Below are positions 12,977 through 44,616 of a stretch of 49,227 nucleotides of DNA, one piece after another (position 1 is the stretch's first letter; each line of letters begins with the position of its first letter). The stretch lies in assembly GCA_028719245.1 (NCBI GenBank), contig JAQUKG010000002.1, positions 1-49,227 on the forward strand, written 5' to 3'. The notes under the pieces are model-generated. The model ran no database searches. It was not told the origin of the DNA and saw only the letters and a program-made list of their open reading frames with translations. This DNA is from Candidatus Altimarinota bacterium. GTDB taxonomy: Bacteria > Patescibacteriota > Gracilibacteria > BD1-5 > UBA6164. A program made the translations under genes and the position numbers.

Positions 12977-12986
12977 AAATATGTTT

Positions 12987-13010
12987 AGGGGAGCAATTGC
13001 TCCCCTTTAT
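12987..13010 (+). terminator. GC-rich intrinsic terminator
   Basis: AGGGGAGCAATTGCTCCCCT is a perfect 20-bp palindrome followed by TTAT. It is strikingly GC-rich against an AT-rich background and sits 11 bp after the HARE-HTH stop, isolating that gene from the ATP synthase locus. Confidence 0.85.
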
Positions 13011-13052
13011 TTACTTCTCACCTCATTTATTTTTAATTTTAACTTTATTTTT

Positions 13053-14076: not shown

Positions 14077-14152
14077 AATAAAATCTAAACTTGGTTTTAG
14101 AAGAATCTTTCTAAGATCAGAATTTATATTTTATTATTAACTTACATATTAT

Positions 14153-14380: not shown

Positions 14381-14404
14381 TATATTTTATAATCTTATAT
14401 ATTT

Positions 14405-14905
14405 ATGGAATTACACGATTTCCAATTCTTTACATTAGAAACCTTAATAATTCAAACTATAATATTAGTTTTGATATTATGGGTTTTGAATCGTTTCATA
14501 TTTAAACCATATTTAAGTTATTTGGATAAAGAATCTGAAAAAAGAAAAAAATTAGAGAATGATTATAATAATATTGAAAAATTAAATAAAGAGGCTCAAG
14601 AACAAAAAGAAAATTTATTATCAGAAGCTAGAAAACAATCTGAAGAAATTAGAAAAAGTTGAGTTGACTTAGCAAAAAAAGAAAGCCAATCAATAAAGGA
14701 AAAAGCTGAAAATGAAGCTAAATTAATAAAAGAATCTGCATTAACTGAAATTCAAACAGAAAGGCAAACAATGTTAAATGATGTTAAATGAGAATCTGTT
14801 GATTTGATTTTGAAATTTAATGCTAAACTTTTTGATAAGGAACAAGTTAACAAAGATTTTGTAGAAAAAGAATTATCTTCTTTGAAAAAATATAGAGTTT
14901 ATTAA
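14405..14905 (+). CDS. atpF: ATP synthase Fo subunit b
   Basis: 166 residues. One N-terminal TM helix (LIIQTIILVLILWVLNRFIF) leads into a long charged coiled coil (residues ~40-140), as expected for the peripheral stalk. The segment NRFIFKPYLSYLDKESEKRK fits the family 'F...P....L..R' junction. Start at the ATG 24 bp after atpE. One in-frame UGA lies at codon 86. Length is typical. Confidence 0.9.
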
Positions 14906-14922
14906 TATTATATAATTATTTT

Positions 14923-15273
14923 ATGATGGGTATTTCTAAATTGGATAGACTTTGAATGAAAGATTTATTAAAAAAATTAAACCTTTTAAGTTCTTTAAAA
15001 AAGTCTTTATGAAAAAGATGAATTTTACAATATCAAAGAATTAATGATGATGTAAATTTTTACAAAATTGAATATTATAATTCTTGAGAAATGAGTTTAT
15101 CTTATGCAAAGGAAAAATCAATTGAATTGTTTAATAAATTATTTGGTATAGATTTAAAAGTTGAAGAAATTCAATTTATTTCTAACCAAGATTTAAAATG
15201 ATGACTTAGAGTTTTTTGTAATGATGATATGTATGATCTAAGTTATAAAAGATTTGAAAAATTATTAAAATAA
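14923..15273 (+). CDS. atpH: ATP synthase F1 subunit delta, short form
   Basis: 116 residues against about 175-180 for usual delta subunits. Position between atpF and atpA and the C-terminal pattern LKGGLRVFCNDDMYDLSYKR (family 'GG.....GD...D.S....L..L') identify it. The N-terminal six-helix domain that binds the alpha subunits appears much reduced or replaced by a short basic helical segment. Two adjacent ATGs begin the gene (14923 and 14926). The peripheral stalk may therefore attach differently. Confidence 0.75.
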
Positions 15274-15314
15274 CACCCAAGTGGGAAAGAAATTTATTTT
15301 ATAAAAAATTATTT

Positions 15315-16820
15315 ATGTCAAATGACTTACTTAATGGTATTATTAGTGATATTGAAAAACAAATAGATAACTTAGATGCAACTCCAGAAATGGAAAATGT
15401 TTGAGAAGTTTTTTATTTATGAGACTGAATTGCTAAAATTTCAGGGCTTAGAAATGTTGCTTATAATGAACTAGTTGAATTTGAATCAGGATGAGTTTGA
15501 ATTGCTTTAAACCTAGAGGAACACTATGTTTGAGTAGTAGTTTTATCTTGATTTAAAGAAATTAAAGAATGACAAAAAGTAAAATGTACTTGAAGAACTT
15601 TAGAGGTTCCAGTTTGAGAATGACTTATTTGAAGAGTTGTTGATGCCTTATGAAATCCTATTGATGGACTTGGTAAAATTAAATCTAGTGAAAATTATCC
15701 AATTGAAAGAGTTGCTACTTGAGTAATGGATAGAAAATCCGTTCATGAGCCAATGCAAACTGGTTTAAAAGCACTTGATGCTTTAGTTCCGGTTGGTAGA
15801 TGACAAAGAGAATTAATTATTTGAGATAGACAAACTTGAAAAACTCAAGTTGCAATAGATGCTATTTTAAACCAAAAAGGTCAAAACATGATTTGTGTTT
15901 ATGTTGCTATATGACAAAAAGAATGAAAAGTTGCTAGAGTAGTTGAAGAATTGAGAAACAGATGAGCTATGGATTATACTATCATAGTTTCTGCTTGAGC
16001 ATCTAGTCCAGCTTCTATGCAATATTTAGCTCCATATGCAGGTTGTGCTATGGCTGAGTATTTTATGTTTAATGGAAAACATGCACTTATTGTTTATGAT
16101 GATTTAACAAAACAAGCAAATGCTTATAGAGAAATGTCTTTACTTTTAAGAAGACCACCAGGAAGAGAAGCTTATCCTTGAGATGTATTCTATCTTCATT
16201 CAAGATTACTTGAAAGATCATCAAAATTAAATGATAAACTTTGAGCTTGAAGTATGACAGCATTACCAATTATTGAAACTCAAGCTTGAGATGTTTCTGC
16301 TTATATTCCAACAAATGTAATTTCTATTACTGATGGGCAAATTTTCTTAGAATCAGATTTATTTAATGCAGGGCAAAAACCAGCAATTAATGTTTGATTA
16401 TCAGTTTCAAGAGTTTGAGGTTCTGCTCAAATTAAAGCTATGAAAAAAGTTTCTTGAACTTTAAAACTTGATTTAGCTCAATACAGAGAATTAGCAGCCT
16501 TTTCACAATTTGCTTCTGATCTTGATGCTGGAACTAGAAAACAATTAGAAAGAGGTAAAAGAATGATGGAACTTTTAAAACAATGAGTTTTTGAACCAAT
16601 TACAACTGAAAAACAAGTTTGTGCTATGTATGCTTGAACTAAATGATTTTTAGATAATGTAGAAACTTCAAAAATTAAAAAAGTGGAAAAAGAATTATAT
16701 TTAGCTCTAGATGATGAAAAAACTGTTTTAGAATCTATTGCAAAAGAAAAAGTAATAAATGATGAAATAGAAAAGAAATTAGTTGAAATTATTAAAAAAG
16801 TAGTGGAGTTGAATAAATAA
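15315..16820 (+). CDS. atpA: ATP synthase F1 subunit alpha
   Basis: 501 residues, full length. The P-loop [16 protein letters not shown] (near residue 169) has its first and second Gly coded by UGA. Also visible are GRVVDALGNPIDG, the YVAIGQK block and '[23 protein letters not shown]' with the arginine-bearing GLSVSRVGGSAQ. Alpha subunits form the non-catalytic nucleotide sites of the F1 hexamer. The stop TAA (16818-16820) is the first triplet of a REP-like inverted repeat. Confidence 0.97.
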
Positions 16821-16913
16821 TCCTTCCAACCTCCCTTTGAGAAAGGGAGAGCTTATAAGGAAAAATTTTAATTCTCCCTTTCCCAAAGGGAGTAATTGAA
16901 AGCCGGTGGATTA
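16818..16913. repeat. REP-like inverted repeat element after atpA
   Basis: Two hairpins with identical 8-bp stems, CTCCCTTT/AAAGGGAG, lie at 16831-16849 (loop GAG) and 16874-16892 (loop CCC). The outer ends are TAATCC and GGATTA, inverted. The element is GC-rich in an AT-rich genome and begins with the atpA stop codon. It resembles REP/BIME palindromes and a second element after atpD. It could also act as a processing or partial termination site. Confidence 0.7.
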
Positions 16914-16953
16914 AAACTGAAATTAAATAAATTTATTTTTAAATTTTAAAATT

Positions 16954-17628
16954 ATGAAGAAAAATATTATATTTTTGTTAGCATTGGTTTTAATTTTAGT
17001 TTCTTGTTGAAAAACAGAAAATATTAACAATTCTACTAAAGTAAATCAATCTTCTTTAAATAATAAATCAGTAATTGAAAAAGTTAGTAGCTGAACTGAA
17101 TTAAAAAAAATAGATACTTTGATATCTACTTGAAGAAATATTAATTCTTGAACTGTTTTAAATGTAAATCAGGATAATAATAATCTTGAAACATATGTAA
17201 ATGGTGAACTTTGAATAAAATTTAACTATAATAAAAACGATTATACTAATCCAGTTGAAGTATATGATAAAGAATCTGATAATAAGATTACTAAATTTGT
17301 AAAATTATATGCTACAAATAATACAGATTGAACAGCAAATCCAAATATTTCTATTAAAAAGATATATAATAAAACAGATGATTATATAACAACATATGCA
17401 AATGAATATCTTTCAGATTGACTTTCTAAATGAGGTTCTTGATGCGATTTAATAAAAGATAACTTTATAAAATGAACTATATCAAGATGGGTTAAATGCT
17501 CTTGAATGTGAGATTCTGAAACAGTATTAATTAAAAATATTGATAAAAATTTTATTATTGAAATAGAATCTGATTTTTCTTATGAGAGTTTTAATAATAT
17601 AATTAACTCTATAGAATTTATTAAATAA
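16954..17628 (+). CDS. Lipoprotein of unknown function inside the ATP synthase locus
   Basis: 224 residues. A lipoprotein signal peptide ends in the lipobox LILVSC (Cys near residue 19, followed by UGA-coded Gly). The mature part starts with a Ser/Asn/Thr-rich linker, then a domain with GELGIKFNYNKND and a C-terminal FNNIINSIEFIK. That pattern resembles PsbP-like or similar small extracytoplasmic lipoprotein domains ('GI.F..P.....' to 'F..I..S..F'). Two cysteine positions (GSGCDL and VKCSGMG) may form a disulfide. It has no known role in ATP synthase and separates atpA from atpG. Confidence 0.6.
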
Positions 17629-17643
17629 ATAATTTAGAAAATT

Positions 17644-18561
17644 ATGGCAAACGGAAAAGAGATAAAAAGAAGAATCAAGTCAATTAAAAATACTTGAAAA
17701 ATAACAAAAGCTATGGAGCTTATATCAACTGTAAAGATGAAAAAAGCTCAAGATTTAGCTTTGGAAAAAAAGTCATATATGAGATCTATACTTGAAGTAT
17801 TTTTATGAATTAGTGATTCTCTTAGTGAATCTAAGTTTTTTTCTAAACAAAATATTTGATGAAAAACTTTGTGAATTATTATAACTTCAAATAAATGACT
17901 TTGTTGAGGTTATAATATAAATGTAATGAAAAAAGTTAGTCAGTATATGAAAGAAAATACTGATGAGACTATTGATTTTATTGCAGTTGGTAAAAGATGA
18001 TCACAATTTGTTTGAAGAACTTGAAATACTATTGTAGCTGATTTTTCCCATGATTTTAGTGATAATATTGATTTATACTTTGCTAAATCTATTTCAAGAT
18101 TAATTCAAGAAAAATTTTTATCTCCAGAATATTCTAAAATAGTTGTTTTTTACAATCATTATATTAATACTATTAAACAAGTTCCAGTAGCTAGAGAATT
18201 TTTACCTTTAACAAAAGTAGGAATTGAAATGTATTTTAAACAAGTATTTGGGGAAGATTTTTATGATGAGAAAGTTCAAACAAGAAATGAAGTAAAAAAA
18301 ACTGATTATACTATAGAACCGAGTAAGGCTGAAGTTTTAAATGAACTTTTACCAATGTTAATTGATAGTATGTTTTATGATATGTTAATTGAAGCAAAAG
18401 CTTCAGAACACTCATCTCGTATGATTGCTATGAAAAATGCTAAAGATAATGCTAATAAATATGCTTCTAAACTAACACTTGCTTACAACAAAGCTAGACA
18501 AGCAGCAATTACAAAAGAAGTTTCTGAAATAGTATCTTGAGTAGAAAGTATGAAAGAGTAA
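17644..18561 (+). CDS. atpG: ATP synthase F1 subunit gamma
   Basis: 305 residues. The N-terminus KEIKRRIKSIKNTGKITKAM and VKMKKAQ is the conserved first helix of the rotor. SNKGLCGGYNINVMK is the second family block, and the C-terminal helix has ASEHSSRMIAMKNAKDNA and 'KLTLAYNKARQAAITKEVSEIVSGVE'. The gamma subunit is the central shaft. Full length. Starts 15 bp after the lipoprotein gene. Confidence 0.95.
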
Positions 18562-18577
18562 AAATTATTATTACACT

Positions 18578-18985
18578 ATGAAACTAAAACTTTATACTGA
18601 TGGGTGAAGTAGATGAAATCCTGGCAAGTCTTGAATATGAGTTTATATAACAGATGAGAATTGACTTGAAATAGAAAAAAGATATAAATATCTTTGAATA
18701 AAAACAAACAACGAAGCAGAATATTTATGAGCTTATTTTTGAATAAAAAGATGTATAGAACTATGAAGTAATGAAATAGAATTATATATGGATAGCGATT
18801 TAGTAATAAAGCAATTATCCTGAGAACGGAAAATAAAAAAAGACGAATTAAAAATATTAAATTCAGACATAAAAAATCTTATATCTGAATTTAATATAAA
18901 AATCCACTTTAATTGGATTAGGAGAGAGAAAAACAAAGAAGCTGATAGATTAAGTAATGTTGCAATGGATAGTATTAATAAATAG
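18578..18985 (+). CDS. RNase HI-family protein
   Basis: 135 residues. RNase H fold with the acidic residues in order: LYTDGGSRGNPG (first Asp), NNEAEYLGAYFG (Glu), LYMDSDLVIKQLSG (Asp) and NKEADRLSNVAM (last Asp). This is the RnhA-like group (YpdQ-type) that cleaves RNA in RNA-DNA hybrids. 16 bp after atpG and 3 bp before the next gene. No link to ATP synthesis is known, so this is an insertion into the operon. Confidence 0.85.
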
Positions 18986-18988
18986 AAT

Positions 18989-19435
18989 ATGATTATAATT
19001 AATCTTGATAGAAATACAATAAAAAGACAAATATTTTCTAAAATTTTATTTGTATTAATTTCTTGTATTATTTGAATAATAGTTTCTATTTTAGCCCATT
19101 GGAATGCTTATAGAAATTTTACTATTTATGATTGGGGTAATTTTTTACTATTTTATATTTCAGTATTACCTGTATGAGCTTTATGGTATATTATATGAGT
19201 AAGATTTTTAGCTAAAAAGAATATTATATATAAGATTGATGAAGATTATATAATAGAGGAAAGTTCTAAATGAATTAAAATAATAGAAAGAAGAAAAATA
19301 AAAAAATTAGTAAATAATATTTTCTGATTATCGATAAGTGGTGAAGGAAAAAAGATTTTTATACCAAGGCAAATAGATAAATTTAAGGAAATTTTAAAAG
19401 ATTTAAAAGTAACTACAAAGACTTTTTTGGGATAA
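18989..19435 (+). CDS. Two-TM membrane protein with C-terminal beta domain
   Basis: 148 residues. Two hydrophobic helices (residues ~17-37 and ~52-75) are followed by a soluble region, IYKIDEDYIIEESSKGIKIIERRKIKKLVNN...GEGKKIFIPRQI, compatible with a small PH-like beta fold. No family recognised with certainty. It ends the insert between atpG and atpD. Confidence 0.5.
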
Positions 19436-19683
19436 ATAGTTTAAATTAATTTTTAATTTAAAAATATGTATAAAATAGTTAAATAATTGTTTTGAAAATA
19501 TTCCAGTATTTATTGATTTTAATGATTTTATAACTGTTAAGTGAAGGATTTAAAAAACAAGTAATGAAAGATGTGATTTATTTAAATTAAAAATGTTAAG
19601 GGTTAAAAGATATAAATTATAAATAGTTTTTAGCTTTTAATTTTTAACAAAACTAAAAAAATTTAATTTTTAACTTAATATTT
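19436..19683. other. 248-bp AT-rich gap between the inserted genes and atpD
   Basis: No gene could be supported. It contains short inverted A/T stretches (GTTAAGGGTTAAAAG against CTTTTAATTTTTAAC at about 19598-19650), which may form a hairpin ahead of atpD. One open stretch at 19491-19553 lacks a start codon. It probably holds the leader or a promoter for atpD. Confidence 0.4.
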
Positions 19684-21072
<1,389 letters not shown>

Positions 21073-21075
<3 letters not shown>

Positions 21076-21157
21076 CCCCCTCCTAACCTCCCTCTTATCA
21101 AGGGGAGGAACTAGAATTCCCCTCCTTGACAAGGGAGGGGCCAGGGGAGGGTTTATT
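21073..21157. repeat. REP-like inverted repeat element after atpD
   Basis: A GC-rich block reading TAACCCCCTCC...CAAGGGGAGG, then a short CTAGAATT spacer, then CCCCTCCTTGACAAGGG...GGGAGGGTTTA. The two halves are imperfect inverted copies (about 36 bp each), each containing its own hairpin. The first three bases are the atpD stop codon. Same design as the element after atpA. Confidence 0.75.
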
Positions 21158-21174
21158 TCTTAAAAAATGACACT

Positions 21175-21603
21175 ATGAAACTAGAAATCCTATCATTTAA
21201 CTGAAAATTATTTAAAAGTGAAACTGTATCTTCTGTTACAGCTATGACAAAAGCTTGAGAAATAACTGTTTTAAGTAATCATTCAGCACTTATTACATCT
21301 TTAAAACCTTCTGTTTTAAGAGTTGTTTATCTTGATGAAAATAATATGAAACAAGAAAAAGATTTTGCTATTTGAGGTTGAATTTTGGAAGTTGCAAATA
21401 ATTCTATGAAAATACTTATAGATATGCTTATTTCAGTTGATGAAGTTGATTTAAATTTAGCCGAACAAGCTAAACAAAAAGCTCTTGAAATGATGGAAAA
21501 ATACAAACATTCAGCTGATAGAGTTGATATGGAAAAATTTATTGAAGCTGAAGATATGCTACTCAAATCAATTGCTCAATTAAAACTTTGAGAGATAAAA
21601 TAA
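21175..21603 (+). CDS. atpC: ATP synthase F1 subunit epsilon
   Basis: 142 residues. The N-terminal beta sandwich reads LEILSFNGKLFKSETVSSVTAMTKAGEITVLSNHSALITSLKPSVLRV, matching the epsilon family 'G......L.NH.P....L..G'. A two-helix C-terminal part (LAEQAKQKALEMMEKYK onward) completes it. It links the gamma shaft to the c-ring and can inhibit ATP hydrolysis. The ATG at 21166 is out of frame and stops after four codons, so 21175 is the start. Confidence 0.9.
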
Positions 21604-22850: not shown

Positions 22851-22878
22851 TTGAAAAAAAACAAATTTATGATAGAAT
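22851..22878 (+). promoter_or_regulatory. Predicted sigma-70-type promoter of the giant gene
   Basis: TTGAAA at 22851-22856 and TAGAAT at 22873-22878, separated by 16 bp, about 30 bp ahead of the ATG at 22910. The preceding gene has its own terminator, so a promoter is expected here. AT-rich DNA gives many chance matches. Confidence 0.45.
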
Positions 22879-22909: not shown

Positions 22910-25900
22910 ATGCAAAATTACACTAAATTTCAAAAATTTATTTCATTTTTACTTATTTTTTCAATATTATTTTCATTTACAATTAATATAAAGTTCTTTG
23001 GTTTTATATGAACTATTTTTGCTTCAGACAATAAATATTACAATATTGTTTCTATTTTTGTTGAAGATAATATTTATAATGATATTAAAAATGATATAAA
23101 TATATATGCTAAAAATATTCAAAATACACTTGAAAATACAAAAACTATAATTATTCCAACTAAGTCAGATGAAGATCCTTTTAATATAGCTTCAGTAAAT
23201 GAAAAATTATATTTTGAGTGAACACAATGATTTTTTTGAGATAAATGAAATTCAAAACTTATAGGAAGTGTATTTGTATGAAACTTACCTTTACCTGTTG
23301 TTGAAAATGATTGAAATTATGAAAAAACAGTTTTCCCTTATGTTGATTTTGAAGATAAAAATTATATTTTCAATAATGAAACTAAGACTTATAGTTTAAA
23401 TACTAGTAATATAAAAGATCCAAAAGCAGAAATCTGGCATTGATTTATTTCACCAAATACTTGAAATAAAAGTGAAGATATAAAAGAAATCAAGGATTAC
23501 TTCACAAAAAATAATGATTATTATTTATGAGAGTGAAATTTTAAAAAGAGTGAATGAATATTAAATTGAAATGCAAAAGAAGAATTGATAGGAGGTTATG
23601 AACCATATGTTTTTTATTATGATCAATTTAGAGAATCAAAAGCTGTAAATTATACGGATTTCAAAGCTTATGAGTGATATTTACAAAATATTGAAGATTT
23701 AATTTATAATAGGTTTTCAAAAGAACTAGCTGAAAAATTAAAACAAAATTATTTTTGATCTAATCAAAGTTTAATTTCACAAATCTCTGGATTATTATGA
23801 GATTGAGTTAAAATAGATAGCTCTTTGTTATGACCAACTACACAAAATATTCCAGATATTCAAACTAAAGATATAATTAAAAATACAACAAAAAATTTTA
23901 TTCAGATATTCAACAGTGCATCTTTATGAGAATTTAAAAAAGATGTTCATAATTCTTGAAGATATAACTCTTGATCAACTAAAGTAAATATGGATAGTGT
24001 TCCTTATTTGGTATCAAGTATTGACTCCTTATCTAGTGCAGTTATAAAAAATGTTAATTATGATTTGGAAAATTATATTGATGATTTAGTAAAAAAATGA
24101 TTATCAAGGGATATTTCTATTCCAGATAATTTTGTAATTTGAGATTCTAATAATTGAAATTCTACTTACAATAATTTTTTATATTGAGACCAAGTAAAAG
24201 ATATTTCAAATGCTTCTTCTTGCTCTATTTATAGATGATCAACTTACAATAGCTGAACATTAGTAGAAGCAAATAGATGATATAATATAAATTTGGTACA
24301 AGCTGATATAAATAAATGTACATACGGTGAAACTAATTGATATTGGGGATGAAATAGTCCATTAAACTTAAATCCAGATAATAGTTCTTGAATAATTTGG
24401 AGGTTAAAATCTAGTGATTTCAAAAATGCAATTAATCCAATTTATGATATAGTTTGATGATTAAAAACTAGTGATACAACAAAAAATCCAGATCCAAGAA
24501 ATTGTTTTGATAATAATTTAATTTTGACTAAAAGGATAACAACAGATGAATGAGGTTGATTTAAAATATGATTTTTAGCTTGAAAATCAAATTATCAAGT
24601 TCCTATAAATTGACAATCAGCTATGTGATGGAGTTGTTCTACAACCAATCAAAATCTTTGATATTCTTATAATTTTGATTACACATATAGTCATTTTCCA
24701 ACATTATCATCATCTAATTGCGAAATTCAGTATTTAAAATTAGATTGAGTTAACATTAAAACTTATTCAAATAATAATTGTGAGGTATATACTACCGGTG
24801 GAAGTAATGGTTCTATTAATAGTGAAGAAAATGGTCTTGGTGGTTGATTTTGATGATGATGAACTACAACAACTCAAACTCAAACAGTAAAAACTCTAAA
24901 TTTTCATAAAATATCTTCTTATATTACTCATAAATCTCCAACGGCTGATGAGTTAATTAAGCAAACAAAATATATGGTTTCACCAAATCTACCAATTGAT
25001 AAAGATAGATATATAGATTTTATTTCGGCTGATAATACTTATTGAAAAATAAATTATCCATATTTGTTTAGAATAGTTTTAGATGATAAAAATGAATTTA
25101 ATATTGAAAATGCAAAAGTTCAATTACAAAAATATTTAGATAATAAATCTAAAGAACTAAATGATTTAATAACTGCAAAAAATCCGTCTAAACTTTCTTG
25201 ACTAGATTTAACTATTTACTCATTGCTAAAAACATGAAATTATCCAACAGCTAATATTGATTTATATAAAATATTAGAAAATAAACCAGATAAGGAAATA
25301 GAAATATTTTGAAATAAAAAAACTCTTAGTTATATAGATACTTTAATTTTTTCAATTTATCGGAATAATTTAAATTCTGTTTCAGCAAAATATAAATTTG
25401 TTTTTGAAAATTACCTATGAGACCAATTTTGATGAAATAATTTTGATTTCTTTTTACCAAAAAATAAAAAACAATATGAAATTTCATATTTATGAGCTTC
25501 TTGAGATTCTCAAAATATGTATGTAAAATTAGATCCCAATGAAAAAGCAGATAATCCATTTTCAGATATTATAGCAAATAATTCAATACTAAACAATTAC
25601 TTACTTTGAGTTAGATCAACAACATCAAATAATTGAGGTGCAAATTTTAAATGTGCTCCTCCAGAATGAGTCCCTATTTGGCAATGGCTTCCAGCTGTAA
25701 TATGTCGGTTAAAAGATATGTTACCACCAAAAATTTCTATTACAAATTGAAATTGTTGATTAAATCTTGTGTCTCAAGATTCAGATTGATGATATTTAGA
25801 TAATACAGATGATAATAAAAATTGAATTAATGATTATTTAGAAAATGAATTGGGAAGCTGAAGTTTGGAACTTAAAACGGACTCAAATAAATATTATTAC

Positions 25901-28900
25901 AATAGGGTTTGAAATCTTGAAGCAAATTTATTAAATTCTTCTTGAAGTGCTATACTTTTTGATAATAATTCAAATATTTATTTTGAATTACAAAAAGTTG
26001 AAATTCCAGTTGATGATAAAAAAGATTTTAATAATACAAATAAAAAGGTTATCTTTGATAATGACAATGTTAATCTTAATACAAGCGATGCTTATAAAGA
26101 TGCTTTAAAATATGTATCTTTTAAAAATTTAAACTCTCCCACAAAACAGTGAAAAGCAATATACAGTTTTGTCACAAAATCAAGCGAAGCAAATATTACA
26201 TTTAAGGCTTCAATAAAATTAAAAGATCAAAAATGAAATATAGTTATTTACAAAAGCTGAACAAAAACTATTCAAGTTAGATGAGATTTATTTTATGGAA
26301 CAAATTATAAATTATCTCAATATGCTTGAGAATTAACTCTTGATTCTTGAGTTAATTCTATTATAGCCTCTGATAACCAAAGTATATTTCTAATTCAAGA
26401 TTCTAATTTTGATACTCAAAAATCTAGTCTTTGAACTTTAAATAGTTTATCTAATTCAAAGGAAAAATTATTTATTTCATTGTCAAATAAAGATAGATTA
26501 TGAAAAGATTTAAATGTAGATTATCCATTAATTCTTAAAATAACTAACAAAGATTGAAATATAATTAAAAATAGTGTAATAAATGAAATAACTTGAAATA
26601 TTTGATTATGAATTTTTAAAGAAACTTGAACATTTAATATTGAAATAAAAGATAAATCTTGATTTATAATCAAAAAAGAAATTGATATTATTCCAGATGT
26701 TGCAGTCAAAATTGATCCAAAATTATCCACTACTTTAATGGAAAAATCTTGAGTTATAACTACGAATGTTTTTAGTATTTACGATAAATATTGAAATCCT
26801 ACTGTATGAGATAGTTATAATGTAGAAGCCTCTATTTCATGAAATAGTTTAACTTTTGGAGATGGAACTACTTCTTGAGATTTTAGAGTTTATGAATGAT
26901 TTAAATTGTTTAGACTAAAATCAACTTCAAATTCTTGAGATTCTAGTATTACTTTTAAATTAAAAGTAAATGATGTTGTTGTTGATACAAAAACTGTTAA
27001 TGTATCAGTTGTTGATAAAATTAACTTCAATATTGAATGATTATCAAATCAAGTTAAAGTTTGAAATATTAGTTATAATTTTAATTTAAAAATATTAAAT
27101 TCTAATTCTCAGGCTTCATTTAATTCTAGAGCATATTTAATTTCAAATAATGCTTATATTTCACCAGATCAAGAATTTATTGATATAAAGGATAATTTTT
27201 GATCTTGAAGTTTTATGACAAAAACTAGGGCTTGAGAAAAAATAAATCTTGAATTCAAAATTGAATGAGTAAAAGATTCAATTTATAAACAAATTGATAT
27301 TTTGCCAGATACAGCTTTAAAATTAAATTTATGATTATCAAAATCAAAAATTGAAGCAAGTACTAATTCTACTTCAACTCTTTATGTAGAGGTAAAAGAT
27401 AGATATAATAATACTATTTGGAATGATAATTCTACACAATTAAGTATAAGTATCCCCTATAATTATTCACATATAATAAAATCAAATACTTCTACACAAA
27501 CAGTTTCAAAATGAAAAGCTTTATTTATTATAAATTGAACTAATCAGCCGTGAACAGCATATTTTAAGGTGTCTTCAAATCCAAGTTTATCAAATAATAA
27601 AATTGAAATAATATGACAAGCTTGATTTAAAAAAGATAAACTTGATTTAATCTCTTGAATGAGAGCATCTTGAGTATTATCAATAACTTGAAAACTATTT
27701 TTTGAGGAATACGATTTAGAAAATTATAGATTCAAATATTATAATAAGAATTTATTACAAAACTCAGAAAATTTTAAGTCATTAAGTTCAACTGTTCAAA
27801 CACAACTACTAAATTTATTTGATGATAACAATAAAATAACTATTTCTTGAGTTTGAGAAAATGCTTGAAAAATAGAAACATTTTACTTTTGGAATAAAGA
27901 TAAAATAACTGGGAAAAAGTATAATTGACTTTATACAACACTTTTATGAAGTAATTATTGAGATATAACTGTTAAAGATAATCTAGCAAATTCTATATTA
28001 TTTGATAAAGATAATAGATCTTTAGCTATAACTTCTACTTTGGATAATTTAGAGAAATCTCAAGAAGTAATAAATATAAAACCAGATGGAAACATAGCTA
28101 TAAATAATAATTTAAATGATTTATCTCAAGATATTTCTACAAATTTTAATATAATTAATTCTTGAGACTTAGAAATGGTTTCAACTAATAATACTTTTGA
28201 TAATATTATTTCAAAGATTTATTTTAACTTCAAAAATTTTAATTTAACAAATTGTGATGATATAGATTTAAAAACTTGCATAAATAAGAATGAAAATATA
28301 CTTGCTTTAAAAGCTTCAACGGATTATTTGATTAATTATAATAGTTCAAATTCTTCATTAAAAGATAAAGATTGAAATATTATTTTTAGTGTTTCAAATA
28401 ACTGAAAAATTACTAAATCAACTTTTACTTCACTAGAAATTTCAACGGATTATTCTAATTGATTTGTTTTAGATATACTAAATAATTGAGAGTTAGCTTG
28501 AAATCTTGCTATAAAATTTTCCTGAAATTCACAAATAAATTTTATAAGAGATATAAATGTTTTAAATAGTTCTTTAAATTTGCAAACAAACTGATGAATG
28601 GTTATTTATTTAGATTCCAGAGATTATTATTCTCAAAAGAAATATTTATGAAATTCTACAAAAGGTAAAATTTGATATTCTATTTCATATAATGACCCTT
28701 TTGCTTCTGATACAAAAACACTAAATTCTTTTTCAAATAATTTTTCAAAATGATATGAAGATTTTCAAACTGATGGTTGAATTTGATGGAAAGAAGATAA
28801 TAAAACTTTATTATCTTTTGCTGCTGGAAAAAGTGTTTGAGAGGCAACTAAAGATTATATGAGTTTTTCATTAATTAATCTTTGAGATCCAGTAATTAGT

Positions 28901-31900
28901 CTTAAGCAAATAAAAAAGAAATTACCTTGAACTTCTGTTGATAGAAAATTTGATTCTTCAATTTGATACCTTGTTTCTAAAGATCCTGATAATATTAGTT
29001 ATTCTACATTTGATTATAATAATGATGGAATAATAGATATAGCTATTTTAAAAAGAACTTGATTTATAGAATTACTTGAATGAACAACAGATTTGAAAAA
29101 CTTCATAAACAGATGAAATTTAGTTTATTTATCCGATTTATCAACCAAATCAACTATTCAAACTGGAGACTTTAGTTGAGATTGATATGATGATATAGTT
29201 GTTTTAAATAAAAATAGACAACCAGTATTACTGTCAAATAATAAAAAAGATTTTTCCAGAATTAACTTAAATTTACATTTAAATTGAATAATAAGTCAGA
29301 TAATATCAAGAGATATGGACTTAGATTGAAAAAATGATTTAATTACTACAGATGATTTTGGAGAAATAAATATAAATTATTGAACTTCAACAAATTGAGT
29401 ATTTACCAAATTAAAAGTAGCTGATTGAAAATGAGTTACTCTAAACTGAACAACAATGAAAGCTTGATGAGCCGTTTATTTTGACTGATTATACCAAATT
29501 CCTAAAGATAAAACTGATACTTATTTGACAGAAAGTCAACAATTACTTCAATCTCAACAATCTACAACTACTACAGATGATAATTATTTTAATGAATCAA
29601 TGGTTGATAAATTGGTATTTACTCAAATGAATTATTGAACTGAGAGTGTAACTTCATCTTCAAATTCTAATGAAGAAAATAAACAATCAATATTAAATAA
29701 TCTTCCAGATTTATCAACTTTAAGTGCTTGATGATTAGAAGCAGATAACAGTTCAATTACAGATTTTATTACAAATACAGCTGAAGATTTAAACCCATGA
29801 AATAATATTTATGATAGTGTAAATCAAAATAAATTAACCACATTTATAAAAAGTGAATATAGTGAATATGAATTATTAAATGTAGAAAAGAATTATATTG
29901 ATGAAAATTCAGGTTCTCTTGCTTGATGAGATATAGTAAAATTAAATATAAAAATCACAAATAATACTAATAAAAAGATAAATAATGTGGCTTATGTTGA
30001 TAAAATACCAGATCCATTTTTTCTATCAACGGATAGTTTGATCTCATTAAATATAGGGTGAAAAGAAATTAAACAATCTGATATTTTACTAAAAAGTTCT
30101 CCAAGTGATGACTATACATTTTTATTAGATAGTTATAAAGATTCTTGAAATGAAAAAAGTATTTCACTAAATCCTTGAGAAAGTATTTTTCTGTGAGTTT
30201 ACTTAAATACAAATGCTTTCACATTTTGATTTATAGAAGTTTGAGATTTTGATAATACTACAGAGCACTGAGATATTATTTTTAAAAACAAAAATGAAAA
30301 TTGTTGACAAAAATTTGATCTTTATAAATCAATTACAAAAAGAGGTTATGAATATTTAGAAAAAGTATGAGTTTGTCAAAATGATTTACCAGATTCTATA
30401 GCCCAAAATGCAATAGACACAAATAATAATTGAATTCCTGACTATATTGATGATTTATCAACAAGTGCAGAAAATTCTTGAACAGAAATAGTTGATTTTG
30501 CAAAAGAGAAACTTTGAGAAATAAACAAAGATAGTGATTGAGATTGAGTTATAGATAGTAATGATTCTTCACCAGATAGAAATAATGATGATGATTTTAT
30601 GAATTCTTTAGATTGAATAAATTCACAAGTTGATAGTATAATGTGAACAATTGATACAATTTCAGACTGATTATCTTGTTGATTTTGATGAGGTTCTTGT
30701 TTATCTATGCCAATAAATGCCGCACCGTTAGCACCTTGAAGTTCAATAGCTGCATTTTGATTACCTGCTATTCCAGCATACCCTTCAATGTTTGAAAATC
30801 CCTTAAGTTGATTTCCAATATTTTCAGCTATGACTTGGTGTATGCCTATTCCTGGTTGATGTATACCATTTGTTTGGCCACCAATTCCTGGTTGATGATG
30901 ATGATTATTTTTCTGAACTTTGCCATTAAATTATTTTAGATTATTTATAACTCCAACATTAACTTGAGCAGTTTGAGTCGCAGCATGTTTTTGAAATCCT
31001 TTAATGTCATTAGTATATTGGCCTCCTTGAGTACATCCTTTAGTTCCTTGATGAAATTGTATCGTTGCCGCTGCTCCTTTATTTGGATGTAAAGATGATT
31101 GATCTGATTGAGAAATATATAATGTGGCAAGCAGTTCTCCTTGAACAGATATAGTAAATTGAAATTGTAACTGAGATAATAACTCTACAAAAACACCTTA
31201 TTTATGAGATACAGTTAAATCATATTTACAATACAAAAAGACTTGAGTCAAATCTAAATCATTAGTAGATGCTATTAAAGATTCTTTTTCAACTGTAGCA
31301 AAAGGTTCTGGAGGTTTTCAAATATCTTGAGGACCATTGTTGAATATAAATTGATGATGAAGTTGAGATTGAAGTTTTGATATGTCAATTGATGTCGAGG
31401 CCTTAAAAAGCTGAAATTTTCAAGATGTAATAAAAATTAAAATGACTAGAATTTCTGCTTTTCCTGATTTTATAATGGAATGGGCAACTAGACAAATAGA
31501 AGAAATAGCAAATAAACTAACGGATTTTCCAACAGTTTTTGTAATATTACCTGACTTTAGTTGAATTTTAGATAGTTGATGGAAGGATTTTATAAAGAAC
31601 TTAAAAGACAGTTTTAATAAATGAGAATGAAATATTAAGGCTAAACAAAATCAAATTCAATCGCAAATAGATGCTATCAATAATGCTAAACCAAAGAAAG
31701 ATTGCGAAAAAGATCAAATTTGATGTACTTTAGATAGTCTTGAAACAAGTAAATTAGCTATAAAAAAAGCAGTAACAACAAATGATACTATTTGATGAAT
31801 AAAATGAGCTTATGAGTTTATATCTACTTTACCAATGATATCAATTCAAACTCAAAAAGTAACTTTAAATGTTCCTTGGCCTGATAAAAAAACCATAGAA

Positions 31901-34900
31901 AAGGCATTGGCTGATTTTGAAGCTACAAAAAAACAATGGACTCAAGAACTAGAAAGAGCTCAAAAAGATTGGAATATAAATAATTATACAACTGTATGAA
32001 ATCAAAACTCAGTAAATCAAGATTGAAATAGAGAAAAAATTGTAATTAATACAAAAAATTTAATTAATTCTATTGATAAAAATATTGAGATATTAAATGA
32101 TTATAAAAATTTTCCAGAAAAAATCTATAAAATGTTAAAAATTAAAGAAATTCGGTTAAATCAAGTATTGTGTTATTTGGAAACAATAACAAAAATTACA
32201 GGTTGACGGATTTGAGATAATTGAAAAAGATTTAAAACTTGGGTTGAACTATATATATTAATAAAAGCTATACTTAAATCATGGCAATTACTTATTGATT
32301 TATTTATTGACTATAATGCTTCTTGTCATCAATGTAAAAATGAAAGATATGATTTAATGTATTTTATCTGGAAGTTAATTAGTGCAATAATTCCAAAGAT
32401 TCCAGTTATACAATTTCCAAAATGGCCAGATATTTATATAGATTTACATAATATAAGAGTTCAATTAAATCTTTTAATTCCAGAATTTGAGTTAAATTTT
32501 AGACCTATAGTTATACCTCATTTACCTAGATTATATCTTCCTAGTAGTCCAAATGTAAATATAAATATTCCTTCTTTACCATTATTACCAAAACTTATAC
32601 TTCCTGAATTACCATTATTACCTTCTATTCCAAAGATAGAACTGCCAAATTTACCACCCCCACCAAAATTACCAAAATTATTTTCTTCAATAGAATGAGT
32701 TTTAAAAATATTAAAACTAGTTACAAAAATAATGTGTATTTTAAAAACTAGCCCTTTTGTTCCAGAACGGAGGGCTTGAGATCAAATAGCATTTATAACA
32801 GAAAGATGATGATTTTTAAATTTAGATTTCTTAGATATTTCTTTACCACAATTTTCGTTTCCTTTTGTTGATGCTATAAAAATTACCACTTATGTCAATT
32901 TGGAAGTAGATATAGAATTTTTAGTAGAAATGGCTAAACAAATGGCATTACCATTAAATACTTTTACAAATGATATTGTAAATATGTTAAATATTGGTAT
33001 TTGAGATTTAGATTTTAGAAATATTATTCCTCAAAATATAGATGTAAATATTAATTCAAACTGATCGGTAAATGTAAATACAAGTTACAAGACTGATAAT
33101 AAATCTGATAAGATAAATATCTATAATTTTGCTAAATTAATAGCATTGAACTTACTAAAATTACATGAAACTATTAATAAAGATTCAAAAATTGAGTTGA
33201 GTAATGATGATTTTAAAAAAGAAGTTTCAAAACAACTTGCAAATATTTCAGATGAAAAGATTGTTTGAGTTTGGCAAAATACTTTGAATTATTCTTTTTC
33301 TAAAGAAAATAAGTTAATTGATGACTTAATAAAAAATAATGAAAATAAATGGAATGAAGTTAAAAGTATATTTAATGAAGAAAAAGAAATAAATAATAAT
33401 TTAATAAAAGAAATTGATAAAAGATTGTTAGAAACTCCAAAAGATATTATTTTAGCTAATATTTATAAAATTGATAATTCAAAGGATTATAATACTAGAT
33501 TAGAAAAATATAATTTAAAAGCTCTAAATTCTATTGCTAATTTATATACAAAACAAAATACAACTGATGATATAAAATCAGAGGCAAAAAATATATTAAA
33601 TCAAGTAAATGAATGATTAACCAGTTTTTCAGATAAGTTAGATGAAACAAAAAAAGCATTTAGTAATGTTAAAGTTAATCATATAAATATTCCAAATAAA
33701 TCAAAAGAAATAGCATATAATCCAATAAATTCAACCAATAATGCATTAAAACCTAATAAATTACTAGCAAATAATACTACTACTTCAACTACAACAAATA
33801 CCCAAACTCAATCAACAACTTGAACTTGTAATACAACAAATTGATGATACTCATATGTTTATAAATGAATTTACATGATTGAAAAATACCTAAATAAAAA
33901 GATTAGTTATTTACTTTTTGATTATTTAGATGAATTGGGGTGAAAAGAGGTTTCTAAGGAAGAAGATTTTGATAATGATTGAGATAAAGATGTAATTTAT
34001 ATGGTTTGAAATGAAATATTTATAAAAGAGAATCTAACAAACCAGAAACAAGTAAAAGAATATTATGATTGAAATCCATTATTTTTAAATAGTTCTGATA
34101 ATAAATTTTATAATAATGATTTTATTGAGTCAGTTAATGGGTTTGATGAATCAATTAGTAGTAATTCAAATGTAAACATTAAATTTCTTGATTCTACAAA
34201 TTCAGATATTTCAAATTATAAAACTGAATTTTATGAAATAGTTGATAAATTTGATGATTTAATGAATTGATTTAAATCAACTTATATTCCTGGAAATATT
34301 AAAAAATATGTAATAGATTCTTTTAGAGATATTGATGATATAACTATTGATAAGAACATAACAAATGATTGATATATTGTTAGGAAAAATCTTGCATATA
34401 TAAATAATGTTTGAAATTTAGCTTGAGTAAAGTTAAAAACAAAAGAATTATTAAACTTAGCTAGTGATATTAATTCAAATAAGGAAATAACTATAAATGC
34501 TTGAACACAAATCTATTCAACATCTGACAGTATTAAATTAACTTATTATTTATACAAAGATAAAGATAATGAATTAAAATATAAAGATATAAACTTAAAT
34601 AATTATTCTAATATAACTTTTGATGAAGATATAATTTTGGTTTGATTAACTTGAGATGCTTATGTAGAATGAGGAAGTAATATTGAATTAACTTGAAGTT
34701 CAATTATCTGATATGTCAAAAAACCTTTACTTCCTTGAGCAAAAATTGAATTATCTCAGGATACAACAAATACTAATACGACTTCATATATAAGTATAAA
34801 ATATTATGATGATAGTATTACTGATTTAGACTTTAGTGAAGTTAAATATTATGAATTATATGATTTATGATATAAATCTGATTCCTATTTAATAAGAACT

Positions 34901-36100
34901 TCAATGGAAAATAATTATTATTATGCAAAAATTAGATCTTTTAGGAATAATAAATTTTCAACATATTCAAATCAAATATTATTATCTCCACAAATAGAAT
35001 CTGATAATAAAGCTCCAGAAATTACAAATATTTCTTCAATAAAAGCCCCTGTTTATCAAAAAAGAAGTATTAACATAAGTGATTATATTTTTGAGGATAG
35101 TTGAAATAATAATATAAAAAATATTTATATTGACTCAGATTTAAAAGTTGATAGTAATAATAATTGAAATACAACTGATGATAAAGATTATGAAATGTGA
35201 AAAGATTGAAAATGAATTGATATAAAAATTGTTTGAAATAAAATTTATTTGGATGTAGGACCTTTTGATAAAATTTATAATAAAAAGGTTAGATTAAGTA
35301 TAGTTGATACTAATAATAATATTTGATATAAAGATATTTGATTTATTATTTATTCTCCAATTCCAACAATTACAAGTTATGAAAATAATACTCTTTCTTG
35401 AAAAATAAACGAGTCTTTAGAAACTGAACCGATAAGTTTTTATAGAGTTAGATGATGAAATATAGACAAATTAGCAGATAAAAATTGAATAGATATTTCA
35501 AATACTTTTAATGGTTGAAATTATAGTTTTGATGTATGAGATGCTAACTCTTCATCTTGAATAGCTTTTAGTGAGTCTTGAAGTAGTTTATTTAAAATTG
35601 ACGAATATACTTGAAAAATAAATATTTGAGATTTTGAAAAAATGATAAATAAAGTAACTTTTAAAGTTTATTCTTCAAATAATAAAAATAATGATTTAGC
35701 TTATCCAAAAATAATTATTTCAAAAGATAATATTCCTATATATTATGAATATCTTACAACTCCAAACTCTGGACAAGTTGAAGTTGTAGAAGATTTTAAA
35801 AATTTAAATAAAATATGAATTTATTATAAATCTAATTCTAATAATTATGATTATTATAGTATTCCTCTTTGAGTAAATATGAATGCTTGAGATTTATTTA
35901 TTTATGAATGAACAGACAAAACTCAAAGTCCAATATTTAAAATTTTTAAAGATTGAAGAATAAATACTTTAAACGATGGTTATTATTTAGAATATGATAC
36001 TTATGATAAATATATAGTTTACAATTTAAGAAAAATTTGAGATGACAATATCATTTGAAAAATAATGATTATTCCAGAACCTAACTATATTTTTAAATAA
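22910..36100 (+). CDS. Giant secreted multidomain protein (4,396 residues)
   Basis: A single frame of 4,397 codons under code 25, with very many in-frame UGA (Gly). A long signal peptide is visible (FISFLLIFSILFSFTINIKF...GTIFA|SD, about 39 residues). Layout by residue: ~40-640 a unique N-terminal region; ~640-960 a Gly-rich linker then an alpha/beta region; ~1030-1755 beta-rich Ig-like repeats (Big_1-like, with VFSIYDKYGNPTVG and YVEVKDRYNNTIW); ~2033-2154 three FG-GAP-like calcium loops; ~2503-2564 TSP3-like DxNxNGxPD repeats; ~2584-2733 a hydrophobic Gly/Pro/Cys block; ~2800-3150 Lys/Glu helical segments; ~3161-3261 a Leu-Pro-rich block; ~3682 one more FG-GAP loop; ~4000-4396 Ig/cadherin-like ending. 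No C-terminal TM anchor or sorting signal is visible. Known giant proteins of CPR bacteria are thought to mediate surface attachment; a role in contact with a host cell is inference. Confidence 0.85.
29005..29372 (+). other. FG-GAP/VCBS-like calcium-loop repeats in the giant protein
   Basis: Three repeats at about residues 2033-2154 have the D-x-[DNS]-x-D-G-x-x-D loop: DYNNDGIID, DFSGDGYDD and DMDLDGKND. Each is followed by a short hydrophobic strand (IAILKR, IVVLNK, LITTDD). This is the calcium-binding loop of integrin-type beta-propeller repeats. An isolated fourth copy, DFDNDGDKDVIYM, lies near residue 3685. Confidence 0.75.
30416..30600 (+). other. TSP3-like calcium-binding motifs in the giant protein
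   Basis: Residues ~2503-2564 contain DTNNNGIPDYIDD and, after 25 residues, DSDGDGVIDSNDSSPDRNND. These match thrombospondin type 3 repeats (DxDxDGxxDxxD), usually calcium-loaded linkers in extracellular proteins. A weaker copy, DDNKNGINDYLENE, lies near residue 967. Confidence 0.75.
30661..31110 (+). other. Hydrophobic Gly/Pro/Cys-rich block in the giant protein
   Basis: About 150 residues (2584-2733), nearly free of charge and rich in Pro, Gly, Phe, Trp and Cys. Examples are GFGGGSCLSMPINAAPLAPG, FPIFSAMTWCMPIPGGCIPF and VYWPPGVHPLVPGGNC. It stands out from the Asn/Lys/Asp-rich rest of the protein and its codons include more C and G. It is broken by prolines, so not a conventional TM helix. 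Possibly a membrane-inserting or tightly packed element. Confidence 0.6.
32390..32692 (+). other. Leu-Pro-rich repeat block in the giant protein
   Basis: About 100 residues (3161-3261) with Pro every 3-4 positions and alternating Leu/Ile: PSLPLLPKLILPELPLLPSI, then PKIELPNLPPPPKLPKLF. It may form polyproline-like extended rods or repeated beta turns. It follows a charged helical segment and a pair of Cys in ASCHQCKNERYD. Confidence 0.65.
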
Positions 36101-36118: not shown

Positions 36119-36835
36119 TTATATATCATTTAATTTTGAGCTAATTTCTATTCTTTTATCATTATTATGAAATTTTAGCATATTATCATTTATTATTATT
36201 CAATAGGGTTTTGCTATTTTTTCATAATGTTTTAAAGTTTTTGGCAAAAAAAATTGTTTAAATATCTTATCAAATAAACCAAATATTTTACAATTATTTC
36301 AAAAACTTTTTCAAAAATATTTTATATGATTTTTATTTGAATTAATTATTGATTTATAATCTCAAAAATTTGCCCAAGACTGAGAATTGATAAAATTTTC
36401 ATAAGTATTATCAAAATCTAAAATTGGCTTTAAATAAATAATCCAGAAGTATAAATAAATATCATATTTTATTGCAAAATTTCAAAAATCCATTGAGTTT
36501 TCATCACAAAAAAAACTTAAACAAAATTTCCCAGCATGATATTTATTAGTTTTCCTTTGTCATAAAATAGTAAATATTAAAGTTATTAATATTCTAACAA
36601 ACCACATTCTATTTTTTGAAGTTATAATAAATAAATCTATATCACTTGTTTGTTTTGATACATTCATAGAAATACTATTTCAAATAGAAATTAATTTAAT
36701 TCCAGGGATCCATTTTATAAATTTAGTGTATTTAATAGTTTTATTTATAAAATGTTCATCTATTTTACTTGGATTATCTTTAATACCAAAGTAATTTATA
36801 AATTTTTGATGTTGTGTTTGATTGAAAGCTTGCAT
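36119..36835 (-). CDS. Nucleotidyltransferase-superfamily protein
   Basis: 238 residues. The N-terminal half contains KLISIGNSISMNVSKQTSDI followed by DLFIIT, the pol-beta nucleotidyltransferase pattern (hG[GSN]...S..SDIDLh) with the metal-binding Asp pair in DID. The C-terminal half has a hydrophobic segment and a Lys/Phe-rich tail. The third catalytic Asp could be the one in GKFCLSFFCDENSMDF but is unclear. Function is not assignable. It is convergent with the giant gene (18-bp gap) and divergent from the SGNH hydrolase gene. Confidence 0.6.
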
Positions 36836-42245: not shown

Positions 42246-42270
42246 CAAGAAAATTAATAAAATATTGATT

Positions 42271-43116
42271 ATGAATACATATAAAAAAATAAAAACTTTT
42301 GAACTTAAATTTAAAAAAAATCTCTGAAGCAATTTATTTTGAGCTTATAAATCAGCTTTTATTTGAAGTTGAATAGAGTTTAGCGAAATAAAACAATATG
42401 CATATTGAGAAAATATAAAAAACATTGATTGGAAAACTACAGCCAAAAAATGAGAATTATACACAAAAAAATATGAAGAAGAAAGGGATTTAAATGTCAT
42501 ATTTGTTTTAGATATTTCAAAAAGTATGAATTTTTGAAGCAAAGATATAACTAAAAAACAACTTCAAGAAGAAATATTTTATACATTGTGATTATCGGCT
42601 ATAGAAAACGATGATAATGTTTGAGCAATAATTTATGATGAAGAAATAAAAGAATTTATTTTCCCTAAAAAATGATTTTGAAATTTATATAAAATACTTG
42701 AAAAATTAGAACAAAACTGAACTAAAAATAAAAATACCATAAATATTTTAAAAGAAATTATTAAAAGACATATAAAAAAATCTTTGATATTTATTTTAAC
42801 TGATGATGAAAAAATTGATGATGAAAAAGTATTAAAAATTGCATCAAAAGAAAACCAAATAATAATCATAAATATTTTTGATTTTTTTGAAAATAATTTA
42901 TTTCTAAATAATTCTAATTTAGCTTTAAACCTAGATAAAAGTTCTATAAATATAAATTTAGATAAACAAAAAATAACTGAATTTGTAAATCTTAGAAAAG
43001 AAAATTTAGAAAATTTTAAAAACAAACTACAAAAAAACCATATTTGATATTTGTATATTGATACAAATATGAACTTCTACAATGAATTAAGACAATATTT
43101 TTATAAAATAAGCTAA
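42271..43116 (+). CDS. DUF58/vWA-like protein (Bat operon)
   Basis: 281 residues. The DUF58 signature is clear: GSGIEFSEIKQYAYGENIKN followed by IDWKTTAKKG, then a vWA-like MIDAS start VIFVLDISKSMNFGSKD (DxSxS). DUF58 proteins usually sit next to a MoxR AAA+ ATPase and the BatA/B proteins and are thought to act as chaperones or assembly factors for envelope complexes. No MoxR gene is seen here. It is 1 bp before the next gene. Confidence 0.85.
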
Positions 43117-43117
43117 T

Positions 43118-43570
43118 ATGAAAGATATTTTTGATATAAAAGCAAATGTTTTGCCCGATTTAATTAATTTAAATTATTCTTTAATTTATATATTTTTTAT
43201 AATTTTGGTTTTGATTTTTATTTATTTTAAAAAAAGAAAACCCCAAAAAATAGAAATAGAAGAAATTGACTATAAGAAAATTCAAATAGATTTTATAAAA
43301 CTTTTAGAAGATATTTCAAAAAATTATATAAATTCACAAAAAGAAATTTTTTATAAAAAACTAAAATCATTTATAATTTTATTTTTGGAATACAAAACAA
43401 AAAGTAATATTTCGCAAATGACTCTTAGTGAACTTGAAAAAATTGATTTTACAAAAGATCTAAAAGAAATTTTTAAAGAAATATATTTTAGACAATATTC
43501 TGAAATATTAAAAGAAGATAGTGAAAATTATAGAAAAGAAATTTTAGAAAGAATTTCAAAAGTTATTTAA
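43118..43570 (+). CDS. Small membrane protein of the Bat operon (DUF4381-like)
   Basis: 150 residues. One N-terminal TM helix (residues ~22-39) is followed by a basic linker and a helical cytoplasmic domain. Position between the DUF58 and BatA genes and this topology match DUF4381-type proteins of MoxR/Bat loci, but the sequence is too divergent to be sure. Contains no in-frame UGA. Confidence 0.6.
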   Translation: MKDIFDIKANVLPDLINLNYSLIYIFFIILVLIFIYFKKRKPQKIEIEEIDYKKIQIDFIKLLEDISKNYINSQKEIFYKKLKSFIILFLEYKTKSNISQMTLSELEKIDFTKDLKEIFKEIYFRQYSEILKEDSENYRKEILERISKVI

Positions 43571-43581
43571 TTTTTTAAATT

Positions 43582-44616
43582 ATGGAAACTTTAGAAAATA
43601 TAGAATTTTTAGATAAATATTATTTTTGGCTTTTAGTCTTAATTCCAATAATAATTTATTTATTTTATAAAAAACAAAAATCCTGAATAAATATTATAAC
43701 TTTTTTAGATTTAAAAAGTATTTTTAAGTGAAATAGTATTTTATTTTATATAAAAATATTTTTATTATTTTTAATACTTTGTAGTTTTATTTTGCTTTTA
43801 GCAAACCCAAACTTAGTAAATTCAAAACAAAATATTACGAAAGATTGAATTGATATAGTTTTTGCTTTTGATGTTTCTTGAAGTATGGAAGCTCAAGATT
43901 TAAATCCAAGTCGTATAGAATCAGCAAAAAATGTTATAAACAATTTTATCTCAAATATAAAAACAGACAGACTTTGACTTGTAATTTTTGCTTGAAAACC
44001 ATTTGTTTCTATACCACTAACTTTTGATTATAATGTTTTAAAAGAAAATATTTCCAGACTTTCAACTCAAACTATTAACCAACAAAATCCAGGGCTTAAT
44101 TGAACTGCGATTTGAGATGCACTTTTAATGTCAAAAACACTTTTTAAAGCTCCAGAGTGAATATCTAAGAATGATTATGAAAAAAGACAAAAAGTAATTA
44201 TTTTACTAACTGACTGAGATGCAAATGTCTGAGTTGACCCAAATTTAGCTTCATTATCTTTAAAAGATGATAAAATAAAAATTTATACAATTTGAATTTG
44301 AAGTGAAAAATGATGAATTATTAATTATACATCTTGATGATTTACTCAGCAAATGCAAATTCCTCCATTAAATGATACATCTCTAAAACAAATTGCATTT
44401 AATACTTCTTGAGAATTTTTCAGAGCAACTGATAATAATACACTTAAAAATATTTTTGACACTTTGAAAAAATTAGACAAAAACGATATAAAAATAAATA
44501 TAACAAAACTTTATAATGAAAATTATGATTATTTTGTTTTAGTTTTACTTTTAGCTTTAAGTTCGTTTTGTATTTTAATTTTTAGAGATTTAGAATATGG
44601 AAATAACAAATTTTAA
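43582..44616 (+). CDS. batA: BatA-like von Willebrand factor A protein
   Basis: 344 residues. Two N-terminal TM helices (residues ~12-28, ~54-73), a vWA domain with MIDAS FAFDVSGSMEAQDL (DxSGS), a Thr position in PLTFDY and LLTDGDANVG (TDG-D), and a C-terminal TM helix near residue 322. BatA-type proteins are membrane-anchored metal-dependent adhesion domains facing the periplasm or outside. The gene overlaps batB by 20 bp (44597-44616). Confidence 0.88.

Follow-up and report, generated by a model that had tools for sequence, protein, structure and literature searches.

The locus and its reading frame

The DNA that we analysed is a stretch of 49,227 nucleotides (the window) from an organism placed in the Candidatus Gracilibacteria, the genome of which comprises 1.35 Mb in 113 contigs at a completeness of 91%. 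Upon translation with code table 25, positions 22910-36100 of the plus strand constitute a single open frame of 4,396 codons that runs from an ATG start to a stop. A preliminary description, made from the sequence alone, had proposed exactly this 13.2-kb frame and had put its share at about 27% of the window; the frame is indeed found at that place and takes up 26.8%. It contains 262 in-frame UGA codons. When UGA is read as stop (table 11), only one ORF of at least 150 aa remains in the whole 49 kb, in line with the earlier remark that merely scattered short ORFs would then be seen. The gene and the features of the encoded protein, which we will refer to as the giant protein, are the following.

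22910..36100, plus strand: gene of the giant secreted protein, UGA read as Gly, 4,396 aa (homologues, Gly correspondence)
22910..23023, plus strand: Sec-type N-terminal signal, aa 1-38 (sequence and relatives)
23024..25789, plus strand: conserved N-terminal module with an alpha/beta start, aa 39-960 (homologues, AlphaFold)
27335..27580, plus strand: Ig-like domain region, aa 1476-1557 (weak match in the window, E 0.003)
28787..29509, plus strand: FG-GAP/integrin-type propeller repeats with DxDxDGxxD calcium loops, aa 1960-2200 (Pfam, alignment)
29882..30259, plus strand: probable DUF11-like region, aa 2325-2450 (assigned by position)
30416..30589, plus strand: acidic D/N-rich TSP3-like calcium motifs, approximately aa 2503-2560 (sequence; TSP3_bac in relatives)
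30671..31114, plus strand: hydrophobic Gly/Pro/Cys block with conserved Cys and Pro, aa 2588-2735 (alignment)
31589..32389, plus strand: predicted helical region with a 75-residue helix, aa 2894-3160, and a conserved CxxC at aa 3139/3142
32087..32944, plus strand: most conserved block of the family, around the Leu-Pro ladder, aa 3060-3345 (alignment)
32492..32683, plus strand: Leu-Pro ladder, aa 3195-3258 (sequence)
32945..36097, plus strand: C-terminal quarter, aa 3346-4396 (Pfam scans)

A clear relation between UGA and glycine emerged from the alignment with relatives that use the standard code. Gly occupies 41.6% of the aligned cells at the UGA positions of the window, compared to 57.5% at GGN codons and 3.5% at non-Gly codons, and is thus 12 times commoner at UGA than at the latter. 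Frame and recoding therefore support each other. The concern raised at the outset that UGA might act as stop was checked along these lines, and the co-linear homologues, the standard-code orthologues and the Gly alignment all favour translation as Gly. The idea that the frame is an artefact (an assembly chimera, a decayed gene or the product of a wrong code) could draw on one homologue that is split into two frames, but it is already refuted by the intact co-linear homologues in many genomes, by orthologues without internal stops in standard-code genomes, and by the correspondence of UGA to Gly. A promoter-like site is located just 5' of the gene (22851-22878); it constitutes weak evidence, since chance yields nearly as many sites in this region.

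Architecture of the protein

The signal peptide of the preliminary description is visible as a Sec-type N-terminal signal, which is the sole strong hydrophobic segment at either end of the protein; at the likely cleavage site most relatives have an A. The N-terminal module that follows was modelled by AlphaFold with a mean pLDDT of 80.8 and a pTM of 0.73, and the model indicates a Rossmann-like topology at its start. The weak flavodoxin- and lumazine-synthase-like fold matches of this model suggest such a start and nothing further; a comparison with the PDB and with viral structures gave no fold match at E<=0.001, and a Pfam scan of 55 homologues gave no credible family for the module. A WH(G/S) motif has its W and H kept in at least 90% of the homologues. 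The notion of a gingipain/caspase-like peptidase N-terminus, which arose from motifs, was dropped as neither family nor fold matched. Nothing meaningful emerged when the entire protein, the N-terminal module and the core were compared by sequence with solved structures.

The Ig-like repeats that had been described are weak in the window (E 0.003, with no Pfam match of Big_1 or Invasin_D3 in the window protein itself) but strong in the relatives, where the region holds Ig domains of the Invasin_D3, Big_1 and GH2_C5 types (Invasin_D3 in 13/24 and Big_1 in 9/24). The FG-GAP repeats were found as claimed (PF13517, E 3.3e-5 at aa 2087-2145), although just under the Pfam cut-off. This block is present in 31/33 class homologues, FG-GAP_3 is matched in 22/24 relatives, and calcium-type DxDxDG loops, as predicted from sequence, can be seen in the protein. 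DUF11 was recognized by Pfam in 3/24 relatives. As for the TSP3 calcium motifs, the motif is visible in the window but the Pfam support comes from the relatives only.

Two odd blocks had been pointed out, a Gly/Pro/Cys stretch and a Leu-Pro ladder. Both are present, and in the alignment of homologues no part of the protein is better conserved than the former and the Leu-Pro core. In the ladder, 13 of the 18 prolines are preceded by L, I, V or F and the spacing between prolines is mostly 3. The core block is single-copy and its identity across the order amounts to 45-76%. In the AlphaFold model of the core, which is of moderate confidence (pLDDT 67.7, pTM 0.48), long helices, among them one of 75 residues, occur together with a long strand and an extended ladder; the model contains no barrel and found no fold match in the PDB at E<=0.001. 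For the Cys-bearing helices a saposin-like fold, as noted for Vampirococcus giants, is conceivable. Neither odd block corresponds to a Pfam family or a solved fold, and the family has at least three regions without a known fold.

The final 1,050 residues gave no Pfam match in the window or in any of the 19 own-order members, and SLH domains are absent from all 19 own-order C-termini including that of the window, 5 of which are incomplete in that they end with the retrieved stretch. The statement that the protein has no visible anchor is therefore correct for the window; yet its homologues in the sister orders are SLH-anchored. More specifically, among 33 class C-termini, a set that includes the window and five recoded sequences, SLH domains occur in 21 and TSP3 repeats in 15 (Pfam), and SLH is additionally found mid-protein in 11/24 relatives. 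Considering the SLH anchors of the sister orders, the anchorless state is lineage-specific and derived.

Distribution and inheritance

The N-terminal 500 residues match 40/40 genomes of the order, which together with the strong conservation supports the earlier claim that the protein must matter to the cell. Co-linear homologues of full or nearly full length (~4,000-4,400 aa) were obtained from 18 relatives next to the window. A search with the Leu-Pro block matched 163/242 genomes of the class, nearly always once per genome. In the orders of the class that use the standard code, the frame of the giant is unbroken and comprises the same blocks, arranged as in the window; its length is commonly ~3,900-5,900 aa and once 7,874 aa, the maximum. 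The domain order was thus rightly called unusual, but it is not peculiar to this genome, as the co-linear homologues show it to be common to the class. In ~340 genomes of the phylum outside the class the giant was not found, except for one 48-residue match to the Pro ladder, and the N-terminal module had no match among the other-class genomes searched. Two families of the class, f7 and f10, lack the gene in near-complete genomes. It is therefore not universal in the class, and some relatives may do without the protein.

In a tree built from five blocks every sampled family with at least two members is monophyletic, and the UGA-recoded families form one clade (0.875, midpoint root). This topology implies vertical inheritance of a gene that was of giant size under either code. 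The giant gene is a core, vertically inherited, single-copy gene of the class.

Genomic context and the type IV pilus

In the window the gene is preceded by genes for F1-ATPase subunits, a tRNA-editing protein and a pyrophosphatase, and followed by a minus-strand gene of no assigned product, a GDSL lipase and an ABC ATPase. An operon comprising these neighbours was rejected because the flanks are not conserved: the own-order relatives retrieved share no flanking gene set around the giant. The standard-code orders revealed a clear association with type IV pilus genes. These genes, encoding a prepilin (N_methyl motif), PilC/T2SSF and PilB/T2SSE, lie just upstream on the same strand in 18 of the 25 loci for which upstream sequence was available. 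Just downstream, a small secreted Cys-bearing partner is encoded in 22/28 loci, often overlapping the giant gene, and a second small secreted partner follows the first in 12 loci (neighbour clusters were built by single-linkage BLAST). When searched for across whole genomes, the first partner was found in 58 genomes of the class, and in 46 of these it lies at most 7 kb from the core block of the giant.

A secreted protein of 300 residues in the window's own order is related to the second partner (hhalign probability 96.4, E 1e-9); profile comparison showed no relation between it and the first partner. This own-order homologue is present as a single copy in 39/40 genomes, and on contig 11 of the window's genome it is located directly behind a PilB-type ATPase. 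Among the 14 own-order partner loci examined, PilB adjoins or is near in 7, and in 3 further loci minor pilin genes lie a few kb away. The simplest history would be that the giant left the pilus operon and the partner stayed behind. Taken together, the link of the giant to the type IV pilus system is well supported.

The window's genome has seven T2SSE-family matches. The Secretin family was matched in none of 117 class genomes, the control being matched in six genomes, which indicates that the pili do not use the canonical outer-membrane channel. The retractable pili of such cells are thought to serve in grabbing other cells.

Comparison with known surface proteins

The giant resembles several known systems in part. 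Like the PilY1/PilC tip adhesins (PF05567; PMC7541494, PMC8833165) it is large and secreted and has calcium-type loops and a propeller. PilY1 is encoded together with pilus genes, as is the giant at the sister-order loci described above, though not in the window's genome. Unlike PilY1, the giant is about four times longer, starts with another N-terminal module and has SLH anchors in the sister orders; to our knowledge, a conserved helical Leu-Pro core is not part of the PilY1 family. Moreover, the adhesive role of PilY1 is known, whereas that of the giant is presumed. Membership of the PilY1 family was rejected, as its defining domain PF05567 has no Pfam match in the window protein or its relatives. 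The corresponding search of the class matched 0/117 genomes, which is no evidence of absence since the control matched nowhere.

Large surface proteins have been reported from related lineages. In the predator Vampirococcus lugosii, giant membrane proteins that reach 4,163 aa and contain DUF11, integrin and saposin domains were proposed by the authors to form a fibrous surface and to hold the host (PMC8080830). These proteins come from a related lineage and share the DUF11 and integrin (FG-GAP) domains with our giant, a likeness that is drawn from the description; in the available text they appear as a size class in one genome, without a family, a distribution, conserved blocks or a link to a pilus operon (PMC8080830). 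Another Absconditicoccaceae species has very large proteins that are targeted to the surface and contain adhesion domains (PMC13059738), and a Gracilibacteria metaproteome contained a VCBS-repeat adhesion-type protein as well as type IV pili (PMC11452946). As far as their description goes, the published proteins fit our reading of the giant.

Three further groups share individual elements. The sister-order homologues combine SLH with Ig and TSP3 modules just as SLH S-layer and cell-surface proteins do (PF00395); unlike those, the window protein and the sampled members of its order lack SLH, and the family has a pilus operon context and a conserved core block. With intimin/invasin-type adhesins the giant has the Ig repeat types Big_1 and Invasin_D3 in common (in 9-13/24 relatives), but no invasin family was matched beyond the Ig repeats, which form only one part of the protein. 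In the streptococcal antigen I/II adhesins an alpha-helix is wound with a polyproline stalk. The giant has a possible long helix beside its proline ladder, according to a model of moderate confidence, and no sequence relation to antigen I/II was found.

Proposed function

We favour, with about even confidence, a reading in which the giant, as a core surface protein of the class Gracilibacteria, acts in concert with the type IV pilus system and serves attachment. The protein would be exported via Sec through its N-terminal signal and would fold extracellularly into an elongated series of modules, beginning with a novel alpha/beta head and continuing with invasin-type Ig repeats, an FG-GAP propeller of the calcium type, linkers of the DUF11/TSP3 kind and the conserved core with its helices and Leu-Pro ladder. 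Most likely it would present binding sites that hold host or prey cells while these are pulled in by the pili. The sister orders would express it from the pilus operon and fasten it to the cell wall through its SLH domains. In the recoded lineage, where SLH domains are missing and the gene lies elsewhere, some other means must hold it, such as the partner protein of the pilus locus. From sequence and genomic context one would expect the protein to lie at the surface in the window's species and to touch the pilus or the partner. Attachment to a host or prey cell had been called plausible before; the pilus operon of the sister orders and the pilus-locus partner of the own order now lend it new, indirect support.

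A number of observations count against this reading. The giant gene of the window's genome has housekeeping genes and no pilus genes as its neighbours, the core model is only moderate, families f7 and f10 lack the gene, and operon neighbours can share regulation without touching. In addition, the wall anchoring by SLH in the sister orders is at odds with a position at the pilus tip. Because of these anchors a role at the pilus tip is less straightforward than for PilY1, and two other readings stay alive. The giant might be a structural wall or S-layer-like fibre that has no direct part in the pilus, the adjacency of the pilus genes then reflecting shared regulation. Its great length, the Ig repeats, the SLH domains at the C-terminus and mid-protein (21/33 and 11/24), its position away from the pilus loci in the window's order, and the fibrous surface ascribed to giant proteins in Vampirococcus (PMC8080830) are all in line with this. 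Nevertheless, the gene order with PilB, PilC, pilin and the secreted partners is conserved over many families, the partner accompanies pilus genes also in genomes whose giant gene lies elsewhere, and the identity of the single-copy core across the order is, in our own judgement, high for a mere coat, so that we consider such a fibre unlikely, albeit a serious contender.

The lack of a secretin in cells with plentiful pilus ATPases opens the way to a second thought, namely that the giant is a new pilus component, a wall-anchored conduit, exit collar or docking scaffold for type IV pili in secretin-less cells, at which the helical Leu-Pro core and the Gly/Pro/Cys block would meet the pilus and the partners. 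That these are the most conserved parts, and that the gene lies in the pilus operon and has SLH anchors in the sister orders, would agree with such a role. Monoderm bacteria, however, assemble type IV pili without a conduit of this kind, the model of the core has neither a barrel nor a fold match, and f7 and f10 lack the protein; we therefore regard this role as doubtful. It is more improbable still that the giant is a secreted effector or peptidase directed against prey, with the alpha/beta module as its catalytic part. The Rossmann-like topology of the model, the well-kept W and H of the WH(G/S) motif and the existence of predatory relatives (PMC8080830) may point that way, but the homologues contain no credible enzyme family, no confident fold match and no clear invariant catalytic set, and the SLH anchors of the sister orders speak against release.

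Implications

An attachment protein that works with the type IV pilus would bear on the ways in which Gracilibacteria, Absconditabacteria and Peregrinibacteria grip other cells and make use of them; our statements on the Absconditabacteria rest on the genetic code and the kinship of family f13. Until now, giant proteins of such bacteria had been reported from individual genomes. The giant described here belongs to a single-copy family, with genes of up to ~24 kb, that has been retained through much of a class with very small genomes, that spans a change of the genetic code and that is tied to the pilus system by gene order. A specific protein, its conserved blocks and its partner genes are now available to test, and the giant gene provides a long and recognizable marker for finding recoded genomes.

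Homologues of the giant protein

The longest homologue of the giant secreted protein is an open frame of 7,874 aa (loci L113 and L114 on contig 6 of genome G041), found in a member of the class Gracilibacteria that uses the standard code. In one relative (locus L013) the giant is made up by two overlapping frames together, 7001-9556 and 9502-19959, and this division is due to a frameshift or an assembly error. Within the class, many near-complete genomes from families f7 and f10 do not carry the giant.

Genomic context

The gene directly convergent with the giant is the following:

36119-36835, minus strand: 238-aa gene

A clear family assignment was not found for this gene. Elsewhere in the window, the F1-ATPase genes alpha, gamma, beta and epsilon, as assigned from Pfam matches and position, form a run (15315-21603) that is interrupted between gamma and beta by an RNase H-like gene (18578-18985). 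A DUF58 gene and two VWA-domain genes follow each other at 42265-46362, a row that resembles a BatA/BatB-type cluster.

On contig 11 of the same genome, close to the locus of the pilus-linked secreted partner, a separate gene (locus L149, 12952-14000) has an N-terminus that by eye appears SLH-like. It occurs in a lineage in which the giant itself carries no SLH domains.
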